Origin: Lactobacillaceae bacterium
GTDB taxonomy: Bacteria; Pseudomonadota; Alphaproteobacteria; RF32; CAG-239
DNA length: 64,000 nt
Direction of reading: 5' to 3'
Assembly: GCA_031271345.1 (NCBI GenBank)
Contig: JAISVX010000001.1
Span: 124,001 to 188,000, forward strand
In this document: positions 46,173 to 61,850 of the stretch, in pieces
Numbering within the stretch: the first letter of the stretch is position 1
Layout of the letters: the number at the start of each line of letters is the position of its first letter
Notes under the pieces: generated by a model
Told to the model about the DNA's origin: nothing
The model's database searches: none
Seen by the model: only the letters and a program-made list of their open reading frames with translations
Translations under genes and position numbers: made by a program

Positions 46173-46180
46173 TAACAACA

Positions 46181-46266
46181 GGAGGAATTTGGGTCAGCTT
46201 GTCGCCAATCTGGTCAGGTTCGGAAGGAAGCAGCCACAACGATTTAACTGGGGTCAAATTTCCTCC
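46181..46266 (+). ncRNA. ffs: Signal recognition particle RNA (small 4.5S type)
   Basis: The forward strand holds the SRP RNA core GGTCAGGTTCGGAAGGAAGCAGCC-type signature at 46212-46235, with the GGAAGGAAGC asymmetric loop sequence that binds Ffh M domain. The ends pair: GGAGGAATTTG (46181) with CAAATTTCCTCC (46255-46266), so the molecule is a hairpin of about 86 bases without an Alu domain. It binds Ffh and targets nascent membrane proteins. It lies 28 bases before dnaX, the usual alphaproteobacterial place. Confidence 0.9.
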
Positions 46267-46293
46267 GCATAAACATTTTTGCAGAAGAAAATA

Positions 46294-52120: not shown

Positions 52121-52893
52121 GCTAATGTTTCCTTCTCTCTTTTAAGCAGCTCTCCCGTTAAGCTTATATACGCCTGCGAACCGTTGCAGTTGAAATCATA
52201 AAGCAAAACTGGTTTGCCGTGCGATGGCGCTTCGGAGATACGGACATTTCTTGGTATTACGGTATCATATACTTTTTTGCCGAAGAAATTTCTGACATCC
52301 TGCTCAACCATTTGGCTTAGATTGTTGCGGCGGTCATACATTGTTAAAACAACTCCCTCCAGCTCAAGTTTAGGATTAAATCTTTTCTTTATTTGGTTGA
52401 TGTTGCGAATCAAATCCGTAATGCCTTCAAGGGCCAAAAACTCGCATTGCAGGGGAACGACGACGGCATTTGCCGCAACCAGCGCGTTTACGGTTATAAG
52501 ACTTAGTGATGGAGGGCAGTCAATTAAAACATAGTCATAATTAACCGCGCTTTTTTCAATGGATTTGCGAAGAGCATATTCTCTTTCCTCAACGTCAATA
52601 AGCTCCACCTCGGCGCCTGCCAAGTCTGGAGATGACGGTATAATTGAAAAATTGGGAACTTCGGTCCAAACTATTGCGGACGATAAATCCACGTTTCCAA
52701 GCAATACGTCATACGAAGACGGCATGTGTCCTCTTTTACTGATTCCCATTGAGGTTGAAGCATTTCCCTGCGGGTCCAAATCTATTACCAAAACTTTTTT
52801 CCCAACAGCCGCCATCGCGGTGGCAACATTTACTGTTGTCGTCGTTTTTCCCACTCCGCCTTTGCGGTTAGCTACAGCTATAACTCTCGGCAT
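52114..52893 (-). CDS. parA: Chromosome-partitioning ATPase ParA
   Basis: This 259-residue deviant Walker A ATPase has KGGVGKTTT at 11-19, IDLDPQGNASTSMG, LIDCPPSLSLITVNAL and a C-terminal RNVRISEAPSHGKPV as in chromosomal Soj/ParA. It forms the gradient that moves ParB-parS. It shares its start with the rsmG stop (one-base overlap), so rsmG, parA and parB are one operon. Confidence 0.97.
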   Translation of the reverse strand: MPRVIAVANRKGGVGKTTTTVNVATAMAAVGKKVLVIDLDPQGNASTSMGISKRGHMPSSYDVLLGNVDLSSAIVWTEVPNFSIIPSSPDLAGAEVELIDVEEREYALRKSIEKSAVNYDYVLIDCPPSLSLITVNALVAANAVVVPLQCEFLALEGITDLIRNINQIKKRFNPKLELEGVVLTMYDRRNNLSQMVEQDVRNFFGKKVYDTVIPRNVRISEAPSHGKPVLLYDFNCNGSQAYISLTGELLKREKETLAC

Positions 52894-53519
52894 TATTTTG
52901 CTCCTTTAGCCTTTGATATATTTGTTACTACCAAAATTACCCCTTCGTCGCTTTGCTCGTTTTCAAGAACCTCTAAATTAAACTTCCAAAGCTTTTTTGC
53001 TTCCTCTACCTCATTCTGATAGCTTCTGCCTTTGGGAAAGATACATTTTGTTTTTTTCCCGCAAAACCTCTCGACATATCCCAAAAGCTTATCAAGAGAA
53101 GCCATGGCTCTAGATGTTATAACATCCGCGGTTTGAGGTTTGATATTTTCAACTCTGTCGTTTATAATGTTTACGTTCGTGCGGGTTATTTTCTTGACCT
53201 CATTTAAATACACCGTTTTCTTGCCAATGCTTTCAATCAAATTAATATTTAAATACGGCGTTCTATTCTTTAACATAATAGCTAAGACCATGCCGGGAAA
53301 CCCCGCCCCGGAACCAAAGTCATATATGACCTTCGCATCATCAGGGATAAGCTTGTACAGCTGCATAGAATCTAAGAAATGGCGATTCCACGCATCTTCC
53401 AAAGATGCTCGACTCACGAGGTTGAGCTTGGATTGCCACTCTTTTAAAGAGGCTTCGTAAGCCCTTAGCTCTGAGATTGTTTCACGTGAAACATTATATT
53501 TTTTTTCTAAACTTTCCAT
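52893..53519 (-). CDS. rsmG: 16S rRNA (guanine(527)-N7)-methyltransferase RsmG
   Basis: This 208-residue methyltransferase has the AdoMet region VIYDFGSGAGFPGMVLAI and LIESIGKKTVYLNEV, then VITSRAMASLDKLL. It methylates G527 of 16S rRNA. The codons for NVSRET at residues 9-14 form a perfect parS site at the beginning of the gene. Normally mnmG lies immediately upstream; here it is 6.5 kb away, separated by an accessory cluster. Confidence 0.96.
   Translation of the reverse strand: MESLEKKYNVSRETISELRAYEASLKEWQSKLNLVSRASLEDAWNRHFLDSMQLYKLIPDDAKVIYDFGSGAGFPGMVLAIMLKNRTPYLNINLIESIGKKTVYLNEVKKITRTNVNIINDRVENIKPQTADVITSRAMASLDKLLGYVERFCGKKTKCIFPKGRSYQNEVEEAKKLWKFNLEVLENEQSDEGVILVVTNISKAKGAK
53478..53493. 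promoter_or_regulatory. parS site inside rsmG
   Basis: TGTTTCACGTGAAACA is a perfect 16-base palindrome matching the bacterial parS consensus. It starts 26 bases after the rsmG start codon and encodes NVSRET. The site lies upstream of parA-parB, so ParB bound here could spread and affect its own operon. Confidence 0.9.
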
Positions 53520-53714: not shown

Positions 53715-54293
53715 ATGGATATTTTTCATTTAGAATGCTCGGTAAACGACAGCGAACACTCGCTTACAAGAAAATACTCAAGAATGATTGTGGAAAAAAT
53801 AAAAAGCAAACACACCAACGTCAACATATCATACGTCGATTTAATAAAAGAAAACATTCCCTTTATAGATAAGGCTTATGAGACAGCGATGTTTAAGCCT
53901 GAAAGCGCCAGAACGCCAGAGGATGAGAAAATCCTCGCTTCTTTTGACTTAACCTCTTTCGTAAACGCCGACGCTTATGTCTTGGGTATACCGGGATATT
54001 TCTATAATGTACCGGCTATTTTCAAAAATTGGTTTGAGCATCTTTTCAGGATTGACACAACTTTAACCGAAAACTGGGTCGGTCTACTGGGCGGTAGAAA
54101 AATATACATTGTATCTGCCTGGGGCGGAGAATATTTAAACACCGCAATCGAACACAGCTTTGAAACCATTATAAGAAAATCTTTTGACTTATTTGGGTTG
54201 ACCGATATTACATTTTTCAATATTTATCATGATAAGATAACGGAAACAGACAATATTAAAGCCATTGAAAGGGCAATAAATGAAATAATTTAA
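53715..54293 (+). CDS. FMN-dependent NADH-azoreductase-like flavodoxin-fold protein
   Basis: The protein has 192 residues with a flavodoxin-like fold (AzoR/NQO1 group): MDIFHLECSVNDSEHSLTRKYS, VLGIPGYFYNVPAIFKNWFEHLFR and GRKIYIVSAWGGEY. It probably uses FMN and NADH to reduce quinones or azo compounds; the physiological substrate is unknown. GGAAGG precedes the ATG. It is read on the other strand from its neighbours and is flanked by AT-rich DNA on the rsmG side (195 bases, no gene). Confidence 0.8.
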   Translation: MDIFHLECSVNDSEHSLTRKYSRMIVEKIKSKHTNVNISYVDLIKENIPFIDKAYETAMFKPESARTPEDEKILASFDLTSFVNADAYVLGIPGYFYNVPAIFKNWFEHLFRIDTTLTENWVGLLGGRKIYIVSAWGGEYLNTAIEHSFETIIRKSFDLFGLTDITFFNIYHDKITETDNIKAIERAINEII

Positions 54294-54360: not shown

Positions 54361-55185
54361 CTATAACTTCCAGCGATTTGCATAATTCATATCATGAAGT
54401 ATCTGCTCTGCTTTTTCAAAGCCTTTTCCCAGATTTTCTATTTTATGGGCGTCATCGCTGATTATTATCGGCACGTCTTTTTTCTGAAGCTCTTTTATCA
54501 TCCAGCGCGCAGGATAAAAATCATCGAACTTGCTTTCATATCTCATCTCATAAGGCATATTGGTTTTAGACAAGGCTTCTATTATGCCTGCCCTTTCTTC
54601 CTTAAACCCTTCTTCTCCGCAAATCCCGCTTAAGCGCGCATAATCCAGATGAGCAACAAAGTCATAAATGTTTGTTTCTATGGCGTTTTTTATTGTTCTA
54701 AAATGCTGGGAAATCAATTCCTTCTGCAGCCCTTCGTCTTTGACATACTGCTTAAGCCTTAAAACGTGCGCTATTTCATCGCCATAAGAACAAAAGTGAG
54801 CGCCTAACAACAGATAATCTGTATCCAGACCTTCCATCATTTTTTGAAAAGATTCAAACCATCCGTCATAACCAAAAACATCAGCCTCAAAACCAATAAG
54901 AACTTTTATCGGATAATTCTTTGAAACTATGCGTATTTTCTCTATCCGCCTTTTCAAAAGTTCTTTTGTCGCGAGAAAATCCGAATGATATTTATTATCC
55001 GCCTTGCGCATTATGGCATCTTTGTAATACCGCATATCTTTCATATTATGATGGACCGCCAAGTGATCGCTTACACCTATTTCAGACCATCCTAATCTTA
55101 CAGCCTGTTCTATCATTTCTTCCAGAGTGTTTTTGCCATCGGAAAAATCTGTGTGGGTATGATAGCTGAAATCTTGTATTTTCAT
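54361..55185 (-). CDS. PHP-domain phosphoesterase, copy 1
   Basis: The protein has 274 residues with a PHP fold as in HisJ-type phosphatases: metal ligands at HTH (9-11), Asp16, DH (40-41), FEADVF, HFCSYGDE, HLDYAR and SDDAHK near the end. It should hydrolyse a phosphoester or phosphonate using metal ions. It lies at the 3' end of a five-gene operon, its ATG overlapping the HD-HD stop (TAATG). It resembles the 56420 gene along its whole length, including NRW near the end. Confidence 0.85.
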   Translation of the reverse strand: MKIQDFSYHTHTDFSDGKNTLEEMIEQAVRLGWSEIGVSDHLAVHHNMKDMRYYKDAIMRKADNKYHSDFLATKELLKRRIEKIRIVSKNYPIKVLIGFEADVFGYDGWFESFQKMMEGLDTDYLLLGAHFCSYGDEIAHVLRLKQYVKDEGLQKELISQHFRTIKNAIETNIYDFVAHLDYARLSGICGEEGFKEERAGIIEALSKTNMPYEMRYESKFDDFYPARWMIKELQKKDVPIIISDDAHKIENLGKGFEKAEQILHDMNYANRWKL

Positions 55186-56420
55186 TAATCTACCCCCAAA
55201 ATCTTATAAACGTCTTTGCCGCATATTTTATCAAAATATTCTTTAAGCATATTGCCTTCTTGCAGCAGCCTTTCCTTTTCTATCGAAGACAGGCCGTATC
55301 TTTCAACAATCTTTTCCATGCGTTCCTCAACTCTTACAATATTTTCTTCTTCGCAAAGCTTATCGCACAACTGAATCAGCCTGTCATAGTCATCATATTC
55401 AACATCCGCAAGTTTTTCTTTTGCCCATGCTTTCCATTCGTTAGGATACTGCATCTCGTCTATTCTGGCATCTTTATAAGGAAACGTATGTGTCAGACAT
55501 ACCCGCGCAACATCCGAATAGTTTTTTTCAAGCATATATTCATAGCCCTCTCTGCCATGAAACTTTTTGGATTCTTTTTCTTTCAGTCTTTTTCCACAAT
55601 CATGCAGCAAGCCTAATACATAAGCTTTTTCTGGTATAAGTTTTGCTGTACTCTCCGCAATTAGCTTCGCTGCTTTCGCAACATTATGCGAATGGTTTAT
55701 GTAACTGCAAGTAAGCGGCTTATGGGGAAAATGCTCTTTTCTGTAACTAATAACATCCTCAAACACTTTCTCGGCTTCCCAAATAGTCGGATACCCCGCA
55801 GGCTCTGTTTTAATCCCTAAAAGTTCATATAAATCCTTGCCGCACAAACCATCAAAATATCTTTTTAATTTCTGCCCTTCTTCCAAAAGCTCCGATTTTC
55901 TTTCTTTCGGTAAATTATAACGGCCTGCGATGGCCTCGACTCTATTTTCTATTGAAGTTTTCCAGCCCTCATCGTGAAACTTGTCGCATAACTGGATTAG
56001 CCTGTCATAATCATCATATTCAATATCTTGTAATTTTTGTTTTGCCCACAGCATCCATTCTTCAGGGTATCCTGTTGATTTGACATCAAAGTCTTTGTTA
56101 GGAAAAGTGTGAGTCAAGCATATTCTAGCAGAAATAAAATAGCCTTTTTCCATCATTTTTTCATAACCTTCCTGACCATGAAACTTATTTAGCGCTCTTT
56201 CAAGGATTCTGTGTCCATAATCATGGAGCAGACCTAAAACATAAGCTTTTTCAGGGTTTAAATACAGTGTTTGAACAGCTATTTTCTTTGCCGCGTCCGC
56301 CACTTTTATCGCGTGTTCAAGATAAGGTCTACTGTCAACGCCGGAAGTTTCTTTTTTATAAGCCGCCGCTTCTCTAAGAAGTTGTTTTGCCTCTGATAAT
56401 GCAGGAAATCCAATTGGCAT
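55185..56420 (-). CDS. Tandem HD-domain phosphohydrolase (HD-HD fusion)
   Basis: The protein has 411 residues made of two similar halves of about 205 residues. Each half has a complete H...HD...D set: His36, His66-Asp67, Asp146 in the first, His243, His273-Asp274, Asp353 in the second. Shared blocks are EKAYVLGLLHD, CLTHTFP.KD, EYDDYDRLIQLCDK and CGKD.Y. HD domains hydrolyse phosphomono- or diesters, often of nucleotides. Family members in gut Firmicutes are single domain, so this is a duplication. It overlaps both neighbours (one base each). Substrate unknown. Confidence 0.88.
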   Translation of the reverse strand: MPIGFPALSEAKQLLREAAAYKKETSGVDSRPYLEHAIKVADAAKKIAVQTLYLNPEKAYVLGLLHDYGHRILERALNKFHGQEGYEKMMEKGYFISARICLTHTFPNKDFDVKSTGYPEEWMLWAKQKLQDIEYDDYDRLIQLCDKFHDEGWKTSIENRVEAIAGRYNLPKERKSELLEEGQKLKRYFDGLCGKDLYELLGIKTEPAGYPTIWEAEKVFEDVISYRKEHFPHKPLTCSYINHSHNVAKAAKLIAESTAKLIPEKAYVLGLLHDCGKRLKEKESKKFHGREGYEYMLEKNYSDVARVCLTHTFPYKDARIDEMQYPNEWKAWAKEKLADVEYDDYDRLIQLCDKLCEEENIVRVEERMEKIVERYGLSSIEKERLLQEGNMLKEYFDKICGKDVYKILGVD

Positions 56421-57244
56421 TATTTATTCAATCTCCAGCGATTTGTATAGTTTAAGTCTTGCAAAAGCTTTTCAGCGGTTTCATAGTGCGCTCCTAACTG
56501 CTCTGTTTTATGAGCGTCATCGCTGATAACTATAGGTACATTCCTTTTTTGCAGCTCCTTAAGCATCCAGACTGCCGGGTGCTGTTCGCCTGTCTTTGTT
56601 ATTCCGCTTGTATTAAGCTCATAAGGATGTTTGTGTTTTGCAATCGCCTCTATCGCTTCCATTTTCTTATCATCCCATTCGCTTCCCACACACAGTCCTT
56701 GGACTCTAATTACGTCTAAATGACCGATAAAATCAAAATATCCGCTTTTAGCTATTTCCGCTAAATTATCCCAATGGTTAGATATAAACTTTTTCATAAG
56801 TTCGGGAGTCAAAAAATCATCATATAAAAAAAGTCTATAGAGGTTTATTATCTTCGTCAGGTCCTTGTCCCATATATAATGGTTAGAGCCGATAAGATAG
56901 TCATAATCCAGCTCTTTTAACAGTTTTTCAAACAGTTTTCTCCATTCTGCAGATGGAAAATAATCAACCTCCCAGCCAAGATAAACTTTTATTTTGCTTT
57001 TTGTTCCGACTTCTCTTATCTCATCCGCTGTTCTTTTATATAAATCCAGAGCCTTGTTATAGTCGTTAAAAAACATCCTGTGATCCAAAGGCATATTGGG
57101 ATGGAAGATTAAATGGTTTGAAACGCCAATCTCCGAATAACCGATTTCTTCGGCTTTTCTAACCATTTCTTCCGTTGTATTAAAAGCGTCATAAGCATTG
57201 AAAGCGTTTGAGTGCGTGTGGTAGCTAAAGTCCTGTATTTTCAT
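56420..57244 (-). CDS. PHP-domain phosphoesterase, copy 2
   Basis: The protein has 274 residues and is a clear paralogue of copy 1 (both start MKIQDFSYHTH and end SDDAHK...NRW). HTH (9-11) and the last SDDAH metal sites are kept. The usual DH pair is NH (Asn43-His44), and the early Asp region differs (NAFNAYDAFN), so metal binding may be altered. Its ATG overlaps the end of the HD gene (20-base overlap), and its stop overlaps the HD-HD start (TAATG). Confidence 0.85.
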   Translation of the reverse strand: MKIQDFSYHTHSNAFNAYDAFNTTEEMVRKAEEIGYSEIGVSNHLIFHPNMPLDHRMFFNDYNKALDLYKRTADEIREVGTKSKIKVYLGWEVDYFPSAEWRKLFEKLLKELDYDYLIGSNHYIWDKDLTKIINLYRLFLYDDFLTPELMKKFISNHWDNLAEIAKSGYFDFIGHLDVIRVQGLCVGSEWDDKKMEAIEAIAKHKHPYELNTSGITKTGEQHPAVWMLKELQKRNVPIVISDDAHKTEQLGAHYETAEKLLQDLNYTNRWRLNK

Positions 57245-57851
57245 TTTTTAAACCTATTATCTCATAAACATCTTTATTACACATATTGCCGAAATATATT
57301 TTTAAACCATTCAGGCTATCTATCAAAGGCTGAAGGCTTTCCAACGATACATTGTACCTCTCGGCGATATCTTTATATCTTTCTTCAATTGTGCAGGGCA
57401 TTCCAAATTTATTTATATTGTCGCAAAGCTGAATCAGCCTGTCATAATCGTCATACTGTATATTTCTGATTAAGGGAATACACCCCAAAAGCATTTCTCT
57501 TGGCATAGGTTTTTTCTCAATGTCTAAATCTTTATCTGGAAAACTGTGTGTAAGACAAATCTTTGCAATGTCTGGATAGTCATTAATCAGCGCATAATAA
57601 CCGGCCAAACCGTGAAAGATTCCTTCCCGCCTTTCATCAACAATGCGCCCATAGTCATGCAAAAGCCCATAAACATAAGATTTTTCAGGGTTTAAATACG
57701 GTGTATTTTCAGCTATGGTTTTTGCTATTTCTGCCGTTGCTACCAAGTGGTTTATTAACTCTGTTTGATGTTTTTCTGAAAACGGATACGGGGAACTGTT
57801 GCGTTTTTCAAAAAGCGAATTAAACAGCCTCTCTGCCTCCTTTATTCCCAT
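57225..57851 (-). CDS. Single HD-domain phosphohydrolase
   Basis: The protein has 208 residues, one HD module equivalent to half of the HD-HD fusion: His35, His65-Asp66, Asp144, with EKSYVYGLLHD, CLTHSFPDKD and QYDDYDRLIQLCD. Start: ATG at 57851, with AAGGA six bases upstream inside murA-like; the earlier ATG at 57857 overlaps that gene's stop (ATGA) and lacks spacing. It is the second gene of the operon. Substrate unknown. Confidence 0.87.
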   Translation of the reverse strand: MGIKEAERLFNSLFEKRNSSPYPFSEKHQTELINHLVATAEIAKTIAENTPYLNPEKSYVYGLLHDYGRIVDERREGIFHGLAGYYALINDYPDIAKICLTHSFPDKDLDIEKKPMPREMLLGCIPLIRNIQYDDYDRLIQLCDNINKFGMPCTIEERYKDIAERYNVSLESLQPLIDSLNGLKIYFGNMCNKDVYEIIGLKNENTGL

Positions 57852-57853
57852 AA

Positions 57854-59281
57854 TCATTCCTTTATACGGTATATCGGAAGCGAGCTAATGCAGCTGCCTT
57901 CTTTGGAAAAGACAACTTCTATGCCCAAGCCCTCTAAGTTTTTAACTAAATTAGGATACCCTCTTAAGGCAAACTCCGGGTTTTTGATTGTGCTTTTACC
58001 CTTTGCAATCGAGGCTAAAACTATTATTCCCATTGTTCCCCTCAAATCCATGCCTTTTGCTGTTGCCGGCTTGATTTTTGAAGGAATAATATGAGCGAAC
58101 AAAGCTTCGCTGCTTGTGTTTTGACTGCTTGCAACGTCAAGCTTCCAAAACTCGCTCTGCAGACCGAATTTTTGCATTTCTAACAAATGCGCGCTTCTTC
58201 CCGGCCATATCATATCAACGATAACAGAATCCGTTTTTGCCAAACCTAAAACCGCACACCAGATTTGCTGAACATCCGTCTCAAAGCCCGGGTATGGAGA
58301 CATTTGCATTACAAAACCGTCAAAACCGTCAATATCTCTAAAGTCTAAAATCATTTCTTTTTTATCTAGAGAATAATAAATGCCGTTTCTTGCAACTTTG
58401 GTAAGCTGCTTCAACCATGGGGAACAGTGGTCAAGGTTGATTCCTTTAATCTGCACGGTTCCTCGCGCGCCGAGAGCGAGCAGGGCGTAAGTCGCCGCTT
58501 CCAGCCTATCGGGAATTACCTCAAATATTCCGCCTTTTAAAAGACTGCGGTTTTTGCCGTTATAAACAAGACCCGTACTCTCGTTTCCTATAACGTCCAA
58601 CCCCATTTTCTGAAGCATTGATATTAGGTTTGAAACTTCCGGCTCAAGAGACGAATTGTACATCATCTTAAAATCTTTTGTTCCCGCAATAGATAAAAGC
58701 CAGTGGAATGTCGCGCCGTGCGAAACTTTTGCCGTTGTATAAATGGGGTTAACGTTTTCAGGCTCCTCTTTCGGCAGGCCGAAAACAAGATAGTTTTTAT
58801 CTCCATCATGCTCTTCGGTTATTTCCGCGCCAAATATGTTTTTTATCAATTGCTCGTGGAAATCGGTTGGTCTTTTACCGCCGAAAGAACAGCCTCCAGG
58901 TACGCAGACTTTCAAGCTGTTAAACTCGTTCGTATGCTTAAATCTTGCCAACAGAGATCCCCACAAATAGTAGCTTGCCCTAAATTTTAGCGCCTTATCG
59001 TTTAAAACATTGTTTGTAATTTTTTTTGCATGAAGATAAAGAATCTTTTTTTCGGGATTAAATTGTACATTAACGCCCAAGTCCAGCATTATATGCCCCA
59101 TTTCAAGGACGTCCGTAATATACGGCACATTGTGAAGAACAATCTCTTCATCAGTAAGAAGAGCCGCCGCCATAAGTCCTAAAATGGAGTTTTTCGCTCC
59201 GCTTATCTCAACTGTTCCTTTTATAGCCTTGCCGCCCTTAACACTTAGTTTTTCTGGAATAAAAAAGCTTTCACTGTTCAT
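57854..59281 (-). CDS. MurA-family enolpyruvyl transferase, divergent
   Basis: This 475-residue EPSP-synthase-fold protein is longer than typical MurA (about 420-430). MurA active-site residues are conserved: Lys30 in ISGAKNS, Arg101 (FRASYYLWG), Cys131 in PGGCSFGGKRP, Arg137, an Asp in FETDVQQ and Arg in LRGYPNL. The expected reaction is transfer of enolpyruvate from PEP to UDP-GlcNAc or a related sugar, but an insertion after the Cys loop and linkage to HD/PHP genes make another substrate possible. AAGGA precedes the ATG. A -10-like TATAAT lies 33 bases upstream. A canonical murA is not in the window. Confidence 0.85.
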   Translation of the reverse strand: MNSESFFIPEKLSVKGGKAIKGTVEISGAKNSILGLMAAALLTDEEIVLHNVPYITDVLEMGHIMLDLGVNVQFNPEKKILYLHAKKITNNVLNDKALKFRASYYLWGSLLARFKHTNEFNSLKVCVPGGCSFGGKRPTDFHEQLIKNIFGAEITEEHDGDKNYLVFGLPKEEPENVNPIYTTAKVSHGATFHWLLSIAGTKDFKMMYNSSLEPEVSNLISMLQKMGLDVIGNESTGLVYNGKNRSLLKGGIFEVIPDRLEAATYALLALGARGTVQIKGINLDHCSPWLKQLTKVARNGIYYSLDKKEMILDFRDIDGFDGFVMQMSPYPGFETDVQQIWCAVLGLAKTDSVIVDMIWPGRSAHLLEMQKFGLQSEFWKLDVASSQNTSSEALFAHIIPSKIKPATAKGMDLRGTMGIIVLASIAKGKSTIKNPEFALRGYPNLVKNLEGLGIEVVFSKEGSCISSLPIYRIKE

Positions 59282-59408: not shown

Positions 59409-59975
59409 TTATTTGAGTTTTTTTGTTTTTTCCATTATTCTTTTATAGATAGGAAGAACTTCGTCCTCGGTAACGGTTGCCAGCACATCCTCATTATTAA
59501 CCCATTTAATCGCCGAGTTCTCATCCTGTGCAATGCGAAAAACCTCTTCTTCAGAAACCTCAAAAACATACGCCGGCGCATAATGAAGATGATCCGCCAA
59601 AGTTCTGCCTTTTTTTATATGGCTTAATACCTTTAAAACTATATAATCTATAGGAGTTCTATTGTTTAAAACCTTAAAGTTAGGTATCCCGGTTTCTTCT
59701 TCAAACTCTATCATAGCGTTTTTCAGAAGGTCTTTTTCTCCATCGGCATGACCGCCAAACCAGGTAAAAGTTTTAAATAAATTATGATAGCCCATTAAAA
59801 CTTTTGTTCTTTTCGGGTTAACAATCCAAACCACCGTTGTCAGATGCCCGGGCAGGCAGTCTCTGGAATAGGCAAAATCTCCAAAAGCATTTAAAAACTG
59901 CTTTAATGACTCAATCGTTGTTTTTTCAAGCTCATCATAAGGCTCATAGTTTTCTAATTCTTTTAACAAATCCAT
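59409..59975 (-). CDS. Nudix hydrolase
   Basis: The protein has 188 residues with Nudix box GGHADGEKDLLKNAMIEFEEETG, a variant with DGE in place of the usual first glutamate arrangement and Ile at the position of the conserved Arg. Upstream CLPGHLTTVVWIVNPKRTKVLM is the usual first strands. It hydrolyses a nucleoside diphosphate-linked compound, substrate unknown. AAAGGTG precedes the ATG. It lies 27 bases after mnmG and 127 bases before the murA-like gene on the same strand, so it may belong to either unit. Confidence 0.85.
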   Translation of the reverse strand: MDLLKELENYEPYDELEKTTIESLKQFLNAFGDFAYSRDCLPGHLTTVVWIVNPKRTKVLMGYHNLFKTFTWFGGHADGEKDLLKNAMIEFEEETGIPNFKVLNNRTPIDYIVLKVLSHIKKGRTLADHLHYAPAYVFEVSEEEVFRIAQDENSAIKWVNNEDVLATVTEDEVLPIYKRIMEKTKKLK

Positions 59976-60002: not shown

Positions 60003-61850
60003 CTATTTTTTTATATAGCTTAATATTGCCATAATTGCCGCCGGGGTAACGCCCGGTATACGGGAAGCCTCTCCAATCGTCGAGGGCTTAACTTTTGTCA
60101 GCTTTGCAACCATTTCATTTGACAGACCGCCGATTTTTGAATAATCAATATCTGATTTTAATTTAAGTTTTTCATCTTTTTTAAATAACTCAATGTCCGC
60201 CATTTGTCTTTTGATATAACCAGAATATTTTGCCTCAATCTCAATGCTTTCATAAACATCCTCAGGCATACCTCTCAGCTCCGGCCATATAGATACAACT
60301 GTTTCACGTGAAACATTATCGTACGACATCGCGTTAAAAGCGCTTCTCCTGATGCCGTCTTTTTTGGTTTTTATGCCGAACTTTTCCATCTCCTGCGGGC
60401 TGACGTTCAGCTCTTCGACAAGCTTTCTATAATGCCGGATCATATCGTGTTTTATTTTATAATTATTGTATCTGTCTTCCCCAACAACGCCGATATTATG
60501 ACCTTGTTCGGTTAATCTTGCATCGGCATTGTCCGCCCTTAAAAACAAACGATATTCGGAGCGGGAGGTAAACATGCGATATGGCTCGTCAACGCCTTTG
60601 GTAATCAAATCGTCTATCATTACGCCGATATAAGCCATGCTCCTGTCAATTGCAAATTCCTGTTCTGACGCGGCAGAATAAAGGGCGGCGTTGACGCCGG
60701 CAACCAGCCCCTGAGCAGCCGCTTCTTCATATCCTGTGGTTCCATTGATCTGCCCAGCCAAAAATAGCCCGGGAATTTTCTTTACACCAAGCTTTGAGTT
60801 CAGCTCCTGAGGATTGACAAAGTCATATTCAATCGCATAGGCATATTGAAGAATTTCAACATTCTCAAGCCCTTTCATCGTATGAATAAACTTTTCTTGA
60901 ACATCCGCAGGCAAAGAAGTGGATATTCCGTTTGGATAAACCACATCGGTATTTAACCCTTCTGGTTCAAGAAAAATTTGATGGCTTGTTTTGTCTGCAA
61001 ACTTAACCAGTTTATCTTCAATACTCGGACAGTATCTCGGACCAACACCCTTAATCAAGCCGGAAAAAAGCGCGCATTTATCAAAATTATCTCTTATAAT
61101 TTTGTGCGTCGCTTCATTTGTATACGTTATATAACAGCTTACCTGCGGATTTGAAATTTTTTTATTCATATATGAAAAAGGAACAACGTTGTCATCGCCG
61201 TCCTGGCGTTCCAATATATCCCAATTGATTGTTTTTCCATCAAGCCGGGCAGGGGTTCCCGTTTTCAGCCTGCCAATTTCTATGCCTTTAGACTTTAAAT
61301 ACGGCGTTATACCAATGCAGGTCACATCATTTATCCTTCCGCCTTCTGACGTTGTATGACCAATAAACATTATGCCGTTTAAAAATGTGCCTGAGGTTAA
61401 AATTACCGCTTTAGACTTTATTTCTTCGCCAGAAGCAAGCTTTACGCCAGATATTTTATCTTCGTCAAAAATCAGACCTTCAACGGCGGCTTCCATAATT
61501 GTCAGTTTTTTTTGGACGTTTAATTCTTCCAGCATATATTTTTTATAAAGCTCTCTGTCTGCCTGCGCTCTGGGACCCTGAACTGCCGGACCTTTTGACG
61601 CGTTGAGCATTCTAAACTGGATTCCCGCCTTATCAATTACTTTGCCCATCAATCCGTCCAGCGCATCAATTTCACGAACCAAATGTCCTTTGCCGAGACC
61701 TCCTATTGCGGGGTTGCATGACATTTCGCCAATTGTATCTATTTTATGTGTAATTAAAACCGTGTCCGCGCCCATACGCGCCGCCGCCGCACATGCTTCC
61801 GCACCCGCATGACCGCCGCCGACAACAATTACATCAAAATCTTTCGACAT
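60003..61850 (-). CDS. mnmG: tRNA uridine 5-carboxymethylaminomethyl modification enzyme MnmG
   Basis: This 615-residue FAD protein (GidA) starts FDVIVVGGGHAGAEAC, the dinucleotide-binding loop, and has SCNPAIGGLGKGHL, GLFLAGQINGTTGYEEAAAQG and a C-terminal helical domain. With MnmE it makes cmnm5U34 in tRNAs. Residues around 512-517 read NVSRET, encoded by a perfect parS site. The protein has the usual length and domains, so the site is not an insertion. Confidence 0.97.
   Translation of the reverse strand: MSKDFDVIVVGGGHAGAEACAAAARMGADTVLITHKIDTIGEMSCNPAIGGLGKGHLVREIDALDGLMGKVIDKAGIQFRMLNASKGPAVQGPRAQADRELYKKYMLEELNVQKKLTIMEAAVEGLIFDEDKISGVKLASGEEIKSKAVILTSGTFLNGIMFIGHTTSEGGRINDVTCIGITPYLKSKGIEIGRLKTGTPARLDGKTINWDILERQDGDDNVVPFSYMNKKISNPQVSCYITYTNEATHKIIRDNFDKCALFSGLIKGVGPRYCPSIEDKLVKFADKTSHQIFLEPEGLNTDVVYPNGISTSLPADVQEKFIHTMKGLENVEILQYAYAIEYDFVNPQELNSKLGVKKIPGLFLAGQINGTTGYEEAAAQGLVAGVNAALYSAASEQEFAIDRSMAYIGVMIDDLITKGVDEPYRMFTSRSEYRLFLRADNADARLTEQGHNIGVVGEDRYNNYKIKHDMIRHYRKLVEELNVSPQEMEKFGIKTKKDGIRRSAFNAMSYDNVSRETVVSIWPELRGMPEDVYESIEIEAKYSGYIKRQMADIELFKKDEKLKLKSDIDYSKIGGLSNEMVAKLTKVKPSTIGEASRIPGVTPAAIMAILSYIKK
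60300..60315. promoter_or_regulatory. parS site inside mnmG
   Basis: TGTTTCACGTGAAACA, identical to the rsmG site, encodes NVSRET in the mnmG frame. It lies 6.8 kb from the first site. Confidence 0.9.

Follow-up and report, generated by a model that had tools for sequence, protein, structure and literature searches.

The window, by which we mean the whole stretch of DNA analysed here (64,000 nucleotides), belongs to a genome (G000) whose assembly spans 1.50 Mb over 5 contigs at a completeness of 99.8%. The closest named matches to this genome are MAGs of uncultured Alphaproteobacteria, several of them labelled as animal gut. Five overlapping ORFs on the minus strand, in the order MurA, HD, PHP1, HDHD and PHP2, were confirmed in the window (Table 1). 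The junctions were read from the sequence: MurA and HD share an ATGA overlap, HD and PHP1 overlap by 20 bases, and PHP1/HDHD and HDHD/PHP2 each meet at TAATG, all of which agrees with the initial annotation. Its assignment of HD and PHP domains was upheld by Pfam (PF01966 and PF02811), and the motifs that it described as common to the HD modules and to the two PHP copies are genuine.

Table 1. Genes of the cluster and of its surroundings in the window
Gene	Coordinates	Strand	Product and remarks	Profile match
mnmG (gidA)	60003..61850	-	upstream slot border	TIGR00136, 842 bits
Nudix-family protein	59409..59975	-	same slot	PF00293, E=2.5e-6
MurA	57854..59281	-	475 aa, long clade	PF00275, E=2.9e-40
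HD	57225..57857	-	210 aa, single HD-domain metallohydrolase	PF01966
PHP1	56420..57244	-	274 aa, HisJ-type PHP metallohydrolase	PF02811
HDHD	55185..56420	-	411 aa, fused tandem of two HD modules	two HD stretches
PHP2	54361..55185	-	second PHP metallohydrolase	PF02811
flavodoxin-fold/azoreductase-like gene	53715..54293	+	between PHP2 and rsmG	PF02525
rsmG (gidB)	52893..53519	-	downstream slot border; then parA, parB	

Two further genes of the slot, the Nudix gene and the opposite-strand flavodoxin-fold gene, were found there in the window genus only, where both are also present in G013, the other genome of that genus. The initial annotation had proposed that the Nudix hydrolase might work with the five genes. 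It recurs in the same slot in G013, but a gap of 127 bp lies between it and MurA. The Nudix box of this protein looks degenerate. No structured RNA was found in the cassette at the Rfam gathering score, and promoter-like sites in the region were no commoner than in shuffled sequence. Elsewhere in the window, a bacterial small SRP RNA (RF00169) was seen at 46178-46272, just upstream of a dnaX-like gene. A degraded PHP gene in G013 was ruled out; the 109-aa ORF there gave no PHP profile match.

We searched 126 genomes of the GTDB family of the window, small-genome and mostly gut-living Alphaproteobacteria, for HD, MurA, PHP and RsmG. An RsmG homologue was found in 119 of the 126. The mnmG-rsmG regions were taken from most of the RsmG-positive genomes and the slots annotated by BLAST and home-made HMMs, which yielded a census of 102 complete mnmG-rsmG slots from up to 16 genera (labelled g1, g3, g14 and so on). 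A slot contains zero to three HD genes, zero or one MurA gene and zero to three PHP genes. HD and PHP were both present in 49 slots, HD alone in 7, PHP alone in 26 and neither in 20; MurA was present in 15 of the 102. Every HD, MurA and PHP member was co-oriented with mnmG and rsmG (0 on the opposite strand), and HD preceded PHP in 48 of the 49 slots with both, the sole exception being the window (HD-PHP-HDHD-PHP). HD and PHP co-occurred with a Fisher p of 6e-4, in which phylogeny is not corrected for. The genes are thus not adjacent only here, and the layout is conserved across the family.

The slot contents varied among genera. Genera g3 and g6 carried only PHP, and in g14 PHP was found in 2 of 4 slots and HD in none; two whole genera, and the greater part of a third, had PHP but no HD. 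Both were missing from the slots of g4 and g5, which were empty. Given that both are missing there and that PHP occurs without HD elsewhere, the HD-PHP pair is neither essential nor obligate. Slot MurA was restricted to genera g1, g7 and g8. The same two families, HD and PHP, were repeatedly expanded in tandem, and few other genes occurred in the slots. We found no description of an HD-PHP-MurA slot layout in the open-access full-text literature, in line with the initial annotation, which knew of no such system. Neither the conserved cassette nor its position in the genome seems to have been described there.

The MurA of the window had been noted as a divergent MurA-family enzyme. PF00275 bore out the family, and in a tree the long MurA clade is separate from the E. 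coli-type and Firmicutes MurAs. The protein is, however, the sole PF00275 (EPSP-synthase-fold) protein of this nearly complete genome, and an extra, dedicated MurA-like enzyme was therefore ruled out. It is about 50 residues longer than canonical MurA and lies below the curated MurA cutoffs (255 bits vs. 392.7 for TIGR01072 and 265.8 vs. 297 for PRK09369). Residues K30, N31, R101, C131, R137, D336, R362, D412, R414 and R440 were invariant in alignment A1; they match what we take to be the catalytic positions of E. coli MurA (K22, N23, R91, C115, R120, D305, R331, D369, R371 and R397). Since it is the only PF00275 protein, retains all catalytic residues and is accompanied by MurB, the window MurA is most probably the cell-wall UDP-GlcNAc enolpyruvyl transferase, a displaced and relocated housekeeping enzyme and not the enzyme of a dedicated pathway. 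With a PF00275 count of one, assigned to MurA, G000 would lack AroA. Given no AroA and no HisD, auxotrophy of G000 for aromatic amino acids and histidine is probable.

Two MurAs were distinguished in the family, a long clade (60-70% identical; g1, g7 and g8) and the canonical MurA (~31% identical). The canonical enzyme was found in nearly all other family genomes with a match. The long MurA replaces it in g1, g7 and part of g8; both coexist in three g8 genomes and in G105, which is 8% contaminated. MurB was present in every family genome with the long MurA only. Related long MurAs (L098-L107; 41-47% identity; 464-514 aa) were found in termite-gut, marine and Rickettsiales-labelled Alphaproteobacteria. 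No HD, PHP or mnmG adjoined these distant genes, and in most of those small genomes the long MurA was the only PF00275 match.

The putative ligands of the single HD protein (H37, H67, D68, H82, H104 and D146) were 96-100% conserved among 96 slot homologues. A set of six such ligands has been published as diagnostic for dinuclear HD sites like that of YqeK (PMC8177086), and YqeK is a versatile diphosphatase of NaAD analogues, 8-oxo-GTP and Ap4A (PMC9426524). The AlphaFold model of HD had a pLDDT of 94.6. Foldseek placed YqeK (8wmy/2ogi) at the top for this model, but the match was weak (E=6e-3, TM 0.38), and a profile search of solved chains with HD returned an HDOD protein first and then YqeK. 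Against TIGR00488 (YqeK), HDHD scored 28.9 bits vs. a cutoff of 70.15, and the single HD was not listed. HD is best described as apparently YqeK-like in architecture and not as a YqeK member. In the class, the protein was rare outside the family (9 of 380 other genomes vs. 4 of 5 same-family genomes). A Clostridia genome also had a homologue, as did plasmids from Lachnospira, Subdoligranulum and Deinococcus; the plasmid contexts in Lachnospira and Deinococcus gave no clear functional clue. A phage origin was ruled out by 0 HD matches in 50,697 phage records. A role in anti-phage defence was also rejected, as PADLOC gave only weak HD-domain matches (Cas3 and one candidate model) and none for PHP or Nudix.

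The putative metal ligands of PHP (H9, H11, D19, H44, E92, H122, H175, D243 and H245) were conserved among 85 homologues, eight of the nine at 100%, D243 and H245 among them. The PHP model (pLDDT 97.1) matched the fold of HisJ (2yxo; E=1.6e-16, TM 0.74-0.77), which is also the closest protein by sequence; RNase P protein 3 and the PHP of PolX were weaker fold matches. The TIGR01856 (HisJ) cutoff of 90.2 bits was not reached by PHP1 (85.1) or PHP2 (74.5). HisD, the histidinol dehydrogenase, was missing in 125 of the 126 family genomes, G000 included. Because the hosts are without HisD, PHP does not serve histidine synthesis, and a histidinol phosphatase role in that pathway was ruled out.

We also compared the copies within the window. 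The two halves of HDHD share 52% identity, and each shares 43-46% with the single HD; PHP1 and PHP2 are 40% identical. HDHD forms its own clade. In the trees, HD and HDHD belong to separate slot-wide clades of HD, and PHP1 and PHP2 to separate slot-wide clades of PHP. These placements indicate ancient paralogues, and a local duplication of an HD-PHP unit was ruled out. The fusion is specific to the genus, in which the G013 counterpart is an HD protein of 441 aa. The window cassette thus keeps and reshuffles old paralogues.

Several copies lie outside the slot. In both G000 and G013, the gene right after valS is a third PHP gene (L082:5064-5900 and L083:1745-2593); it is the closest relative of PHP2, with which it groups at a support of 0.89. 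PHP also directly follows gltX in three g14 genomes (L272, L290 and L294), and lies 182 bp after aspS (L271) and 321 bp after glyS (L282). Aminoacyl-tRNA synthetase (aaRS) genes thus account for 4 of 13 distinct co-directional PHP contexts, for which a rough chance probability, calculated post hoc, is 5e-5. Other non-slot PHP genes come after a TrmN-like methyltransferase gene at a distance of 15 bp (the TrmN call scores below the curated cutoff), after murQ at 33-37 bp in two g12 genomes (L269 and L270), and after a HAD-like gene at 3-5 bp. The neighbours of non-slot HD copies were varied: four genomes had an IDI/YfcD-like Nudix gene alongside, one had a Nudix gene of another type (L064, L247-L249 and L068), and in one genome mnmA was nearby. 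A longer HD subfamily adjoins a MurU-like uridylyltransferase gene, mostly convergently and with short overlaps (L235-L239, L243, L246 and L256).

We favour, at a probability of roughly 0.42, the explanation that two unrelated things share one slot: a housekeeping MurA, and a lineage-specific HD/PHP clean-up cassette tied to translation. The long-clade MurA would stand in for the canonical enzyme from its place in the mnmG-rsmG gap of three genera. HD and PHP would form a lineage-specific cassette of small metallohydrolases, predicted to be active, presumably co-transcribed and expressed together with mnmG, rsmG and parAB. In this reading the HD modules would most likely cleave phosphoanhydrides or phosphoesters in small nucleotides, like the Np4N/dinucleotide diphosphatases of the YqeK kind, and PHP would most likely dephosphorylate a small metabolite, as HisJ does, the substrate being other than histidinol phosphate for histidine synthesis. 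Together they could carry out a metabolite or nucleotide clean-up linked to translation. Against the clean-up part stand the weak fold match and differing spacing of HD and YqeK, the post hoc nature of the aaRS link with its sometimes large gaps, the varied neighbours of non-slot HD copies, and an HD-PHP pair that is neither essential nor obligate. A more specific version, seems to us quite improbable. In it, HD and PHP would catalyse successive steps of an undescribed turnover pathway whose substrate is a nucleotide arising from translation, perhaps Np4N, an aminoacyl-nucleotide or some other aaRS by-product; the pathway would have been incorporated into the mnmG-rsmG-parAB operon, with copies placed next to aaRS genes.

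The strongest rival holds that the mnmG-rsmG gap is a permissive landing site in which HD, PHP, MurA and Nudix are unrelated passengers sharing a promoter. The slot contents do differ by genus, down to the empty slots of g4 and g5, and the Nudix and flavodoxin genes landed there too. We nonetheless regard it as unlikely, since order and strand are fixed in 48 of 49 slots, HD and PHP co-occur (again with phylogeny not corrected for), and these two families, with few other genes in the slot, have expanded in tandem repeatedly. HD and PHP might instead act on RNA, as in the repair of tRNA ends or the removal of damaged or modified ones. The tRNA- and rRNA-gene neighbours (MnmG, RsmG, MnmA and aaRS) in the slot and at several other loci would suit this, as would the appearance of RNase P protein 3 and PolX among the weaker fold matches of PHP, but the best matches are small-molecule phosphatases (HisJ and YqeK) and Pfam gave no RNA-binding domain; we consider RNA processing improbable.

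Readings that connect the cassette with cell-wall chemistry fared less well. HD and PHP could be sugar-phosphate phosphatases of amino-sugar or peptidoglycan recycling, which is decidedly improbable. The PHP genes behind murQ, the longer HD genes beside MurU-like genes and the presence of MurA in the slot of three genera would suit this, but the murQ case is limited to one genus, the HD genes linked to MurU form a group of their own with mostly opposite orientation, and most cassettes are without a nearby wall gene. Least likely of all, and in our view very unlikely, is one dedicated pathway in which a MurA-like enzyme makes an enolpyruvyl nucleotide-sugar and HD and PHP process the product. 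The tight gene overlaps of the window, the location of MurA inside the cassette, flanked by HD and PHP, in g7 and in a single g8 genome, and the presence of NikO, the MurA-like enzyme of nikkomycin synthesis, among the distant PDB matches would accord with it. However, NikO scored far below true MurAs, 87 of the 102 slots are without MurA, relatives of this MurA are located without HD or PHP, and the genome, which makes peptidoglycan, has no other enolpyruvyl transferase. Of the dedicated pathway suggested in the initial annotation, the conserved neighbourhood, the HD-PHP co-occurrence and the intact ligands stand, and a single pathway including MurA is not supported; the proposed nucleotide-sugar compound found no backing, as nothing about HD and PHP is specific to nucleotide-sugar chemistry.

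Through these observations, two orphan hydrolase subfamilies gain a genomic address, conserved throughout the family, that is testable genetically and biochemically. They also call for caution with the label histidinol-phosphatase, which on PHP proteins here cannot mean the histidine pathway. Finally, a lineage with a deep, long MurA clade as its only MurA bears on the biology of the fosfomycin target and on the displacement of essential genes.

The enzymes themselves are divergent members of known folds. The window MurA shares with known MurA the fold, every catalytic residue and its status as sole copy in a genome with MurB; it differs in its additional length, its sub-cutoff score and its separate deep clade. 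PHP has the fold, length and all metal ligands of HisJ/HisK (PHP family, PRK07328/TIGR01856), but is below both curated cutoffs, resides in hosts without HisD and is linked to mnmG or aaRS genes. HD shares with YqeK (Ap4A hydrolase; NadD-YqeK) the fold, the H..HD..H..H..D ligand set and the small single-domain size. It differs in having ~13-18% identity, another histidine spacing and a score far below the NCBIfam cutoff, and in occurring in tandem or fused copies with no nadD seen adjoining. As for the mnmG-rsmG-parA-parB operon, the window has the same border genes in the same order and differs by the HD/PHP cassette between mnmG and rsmG.
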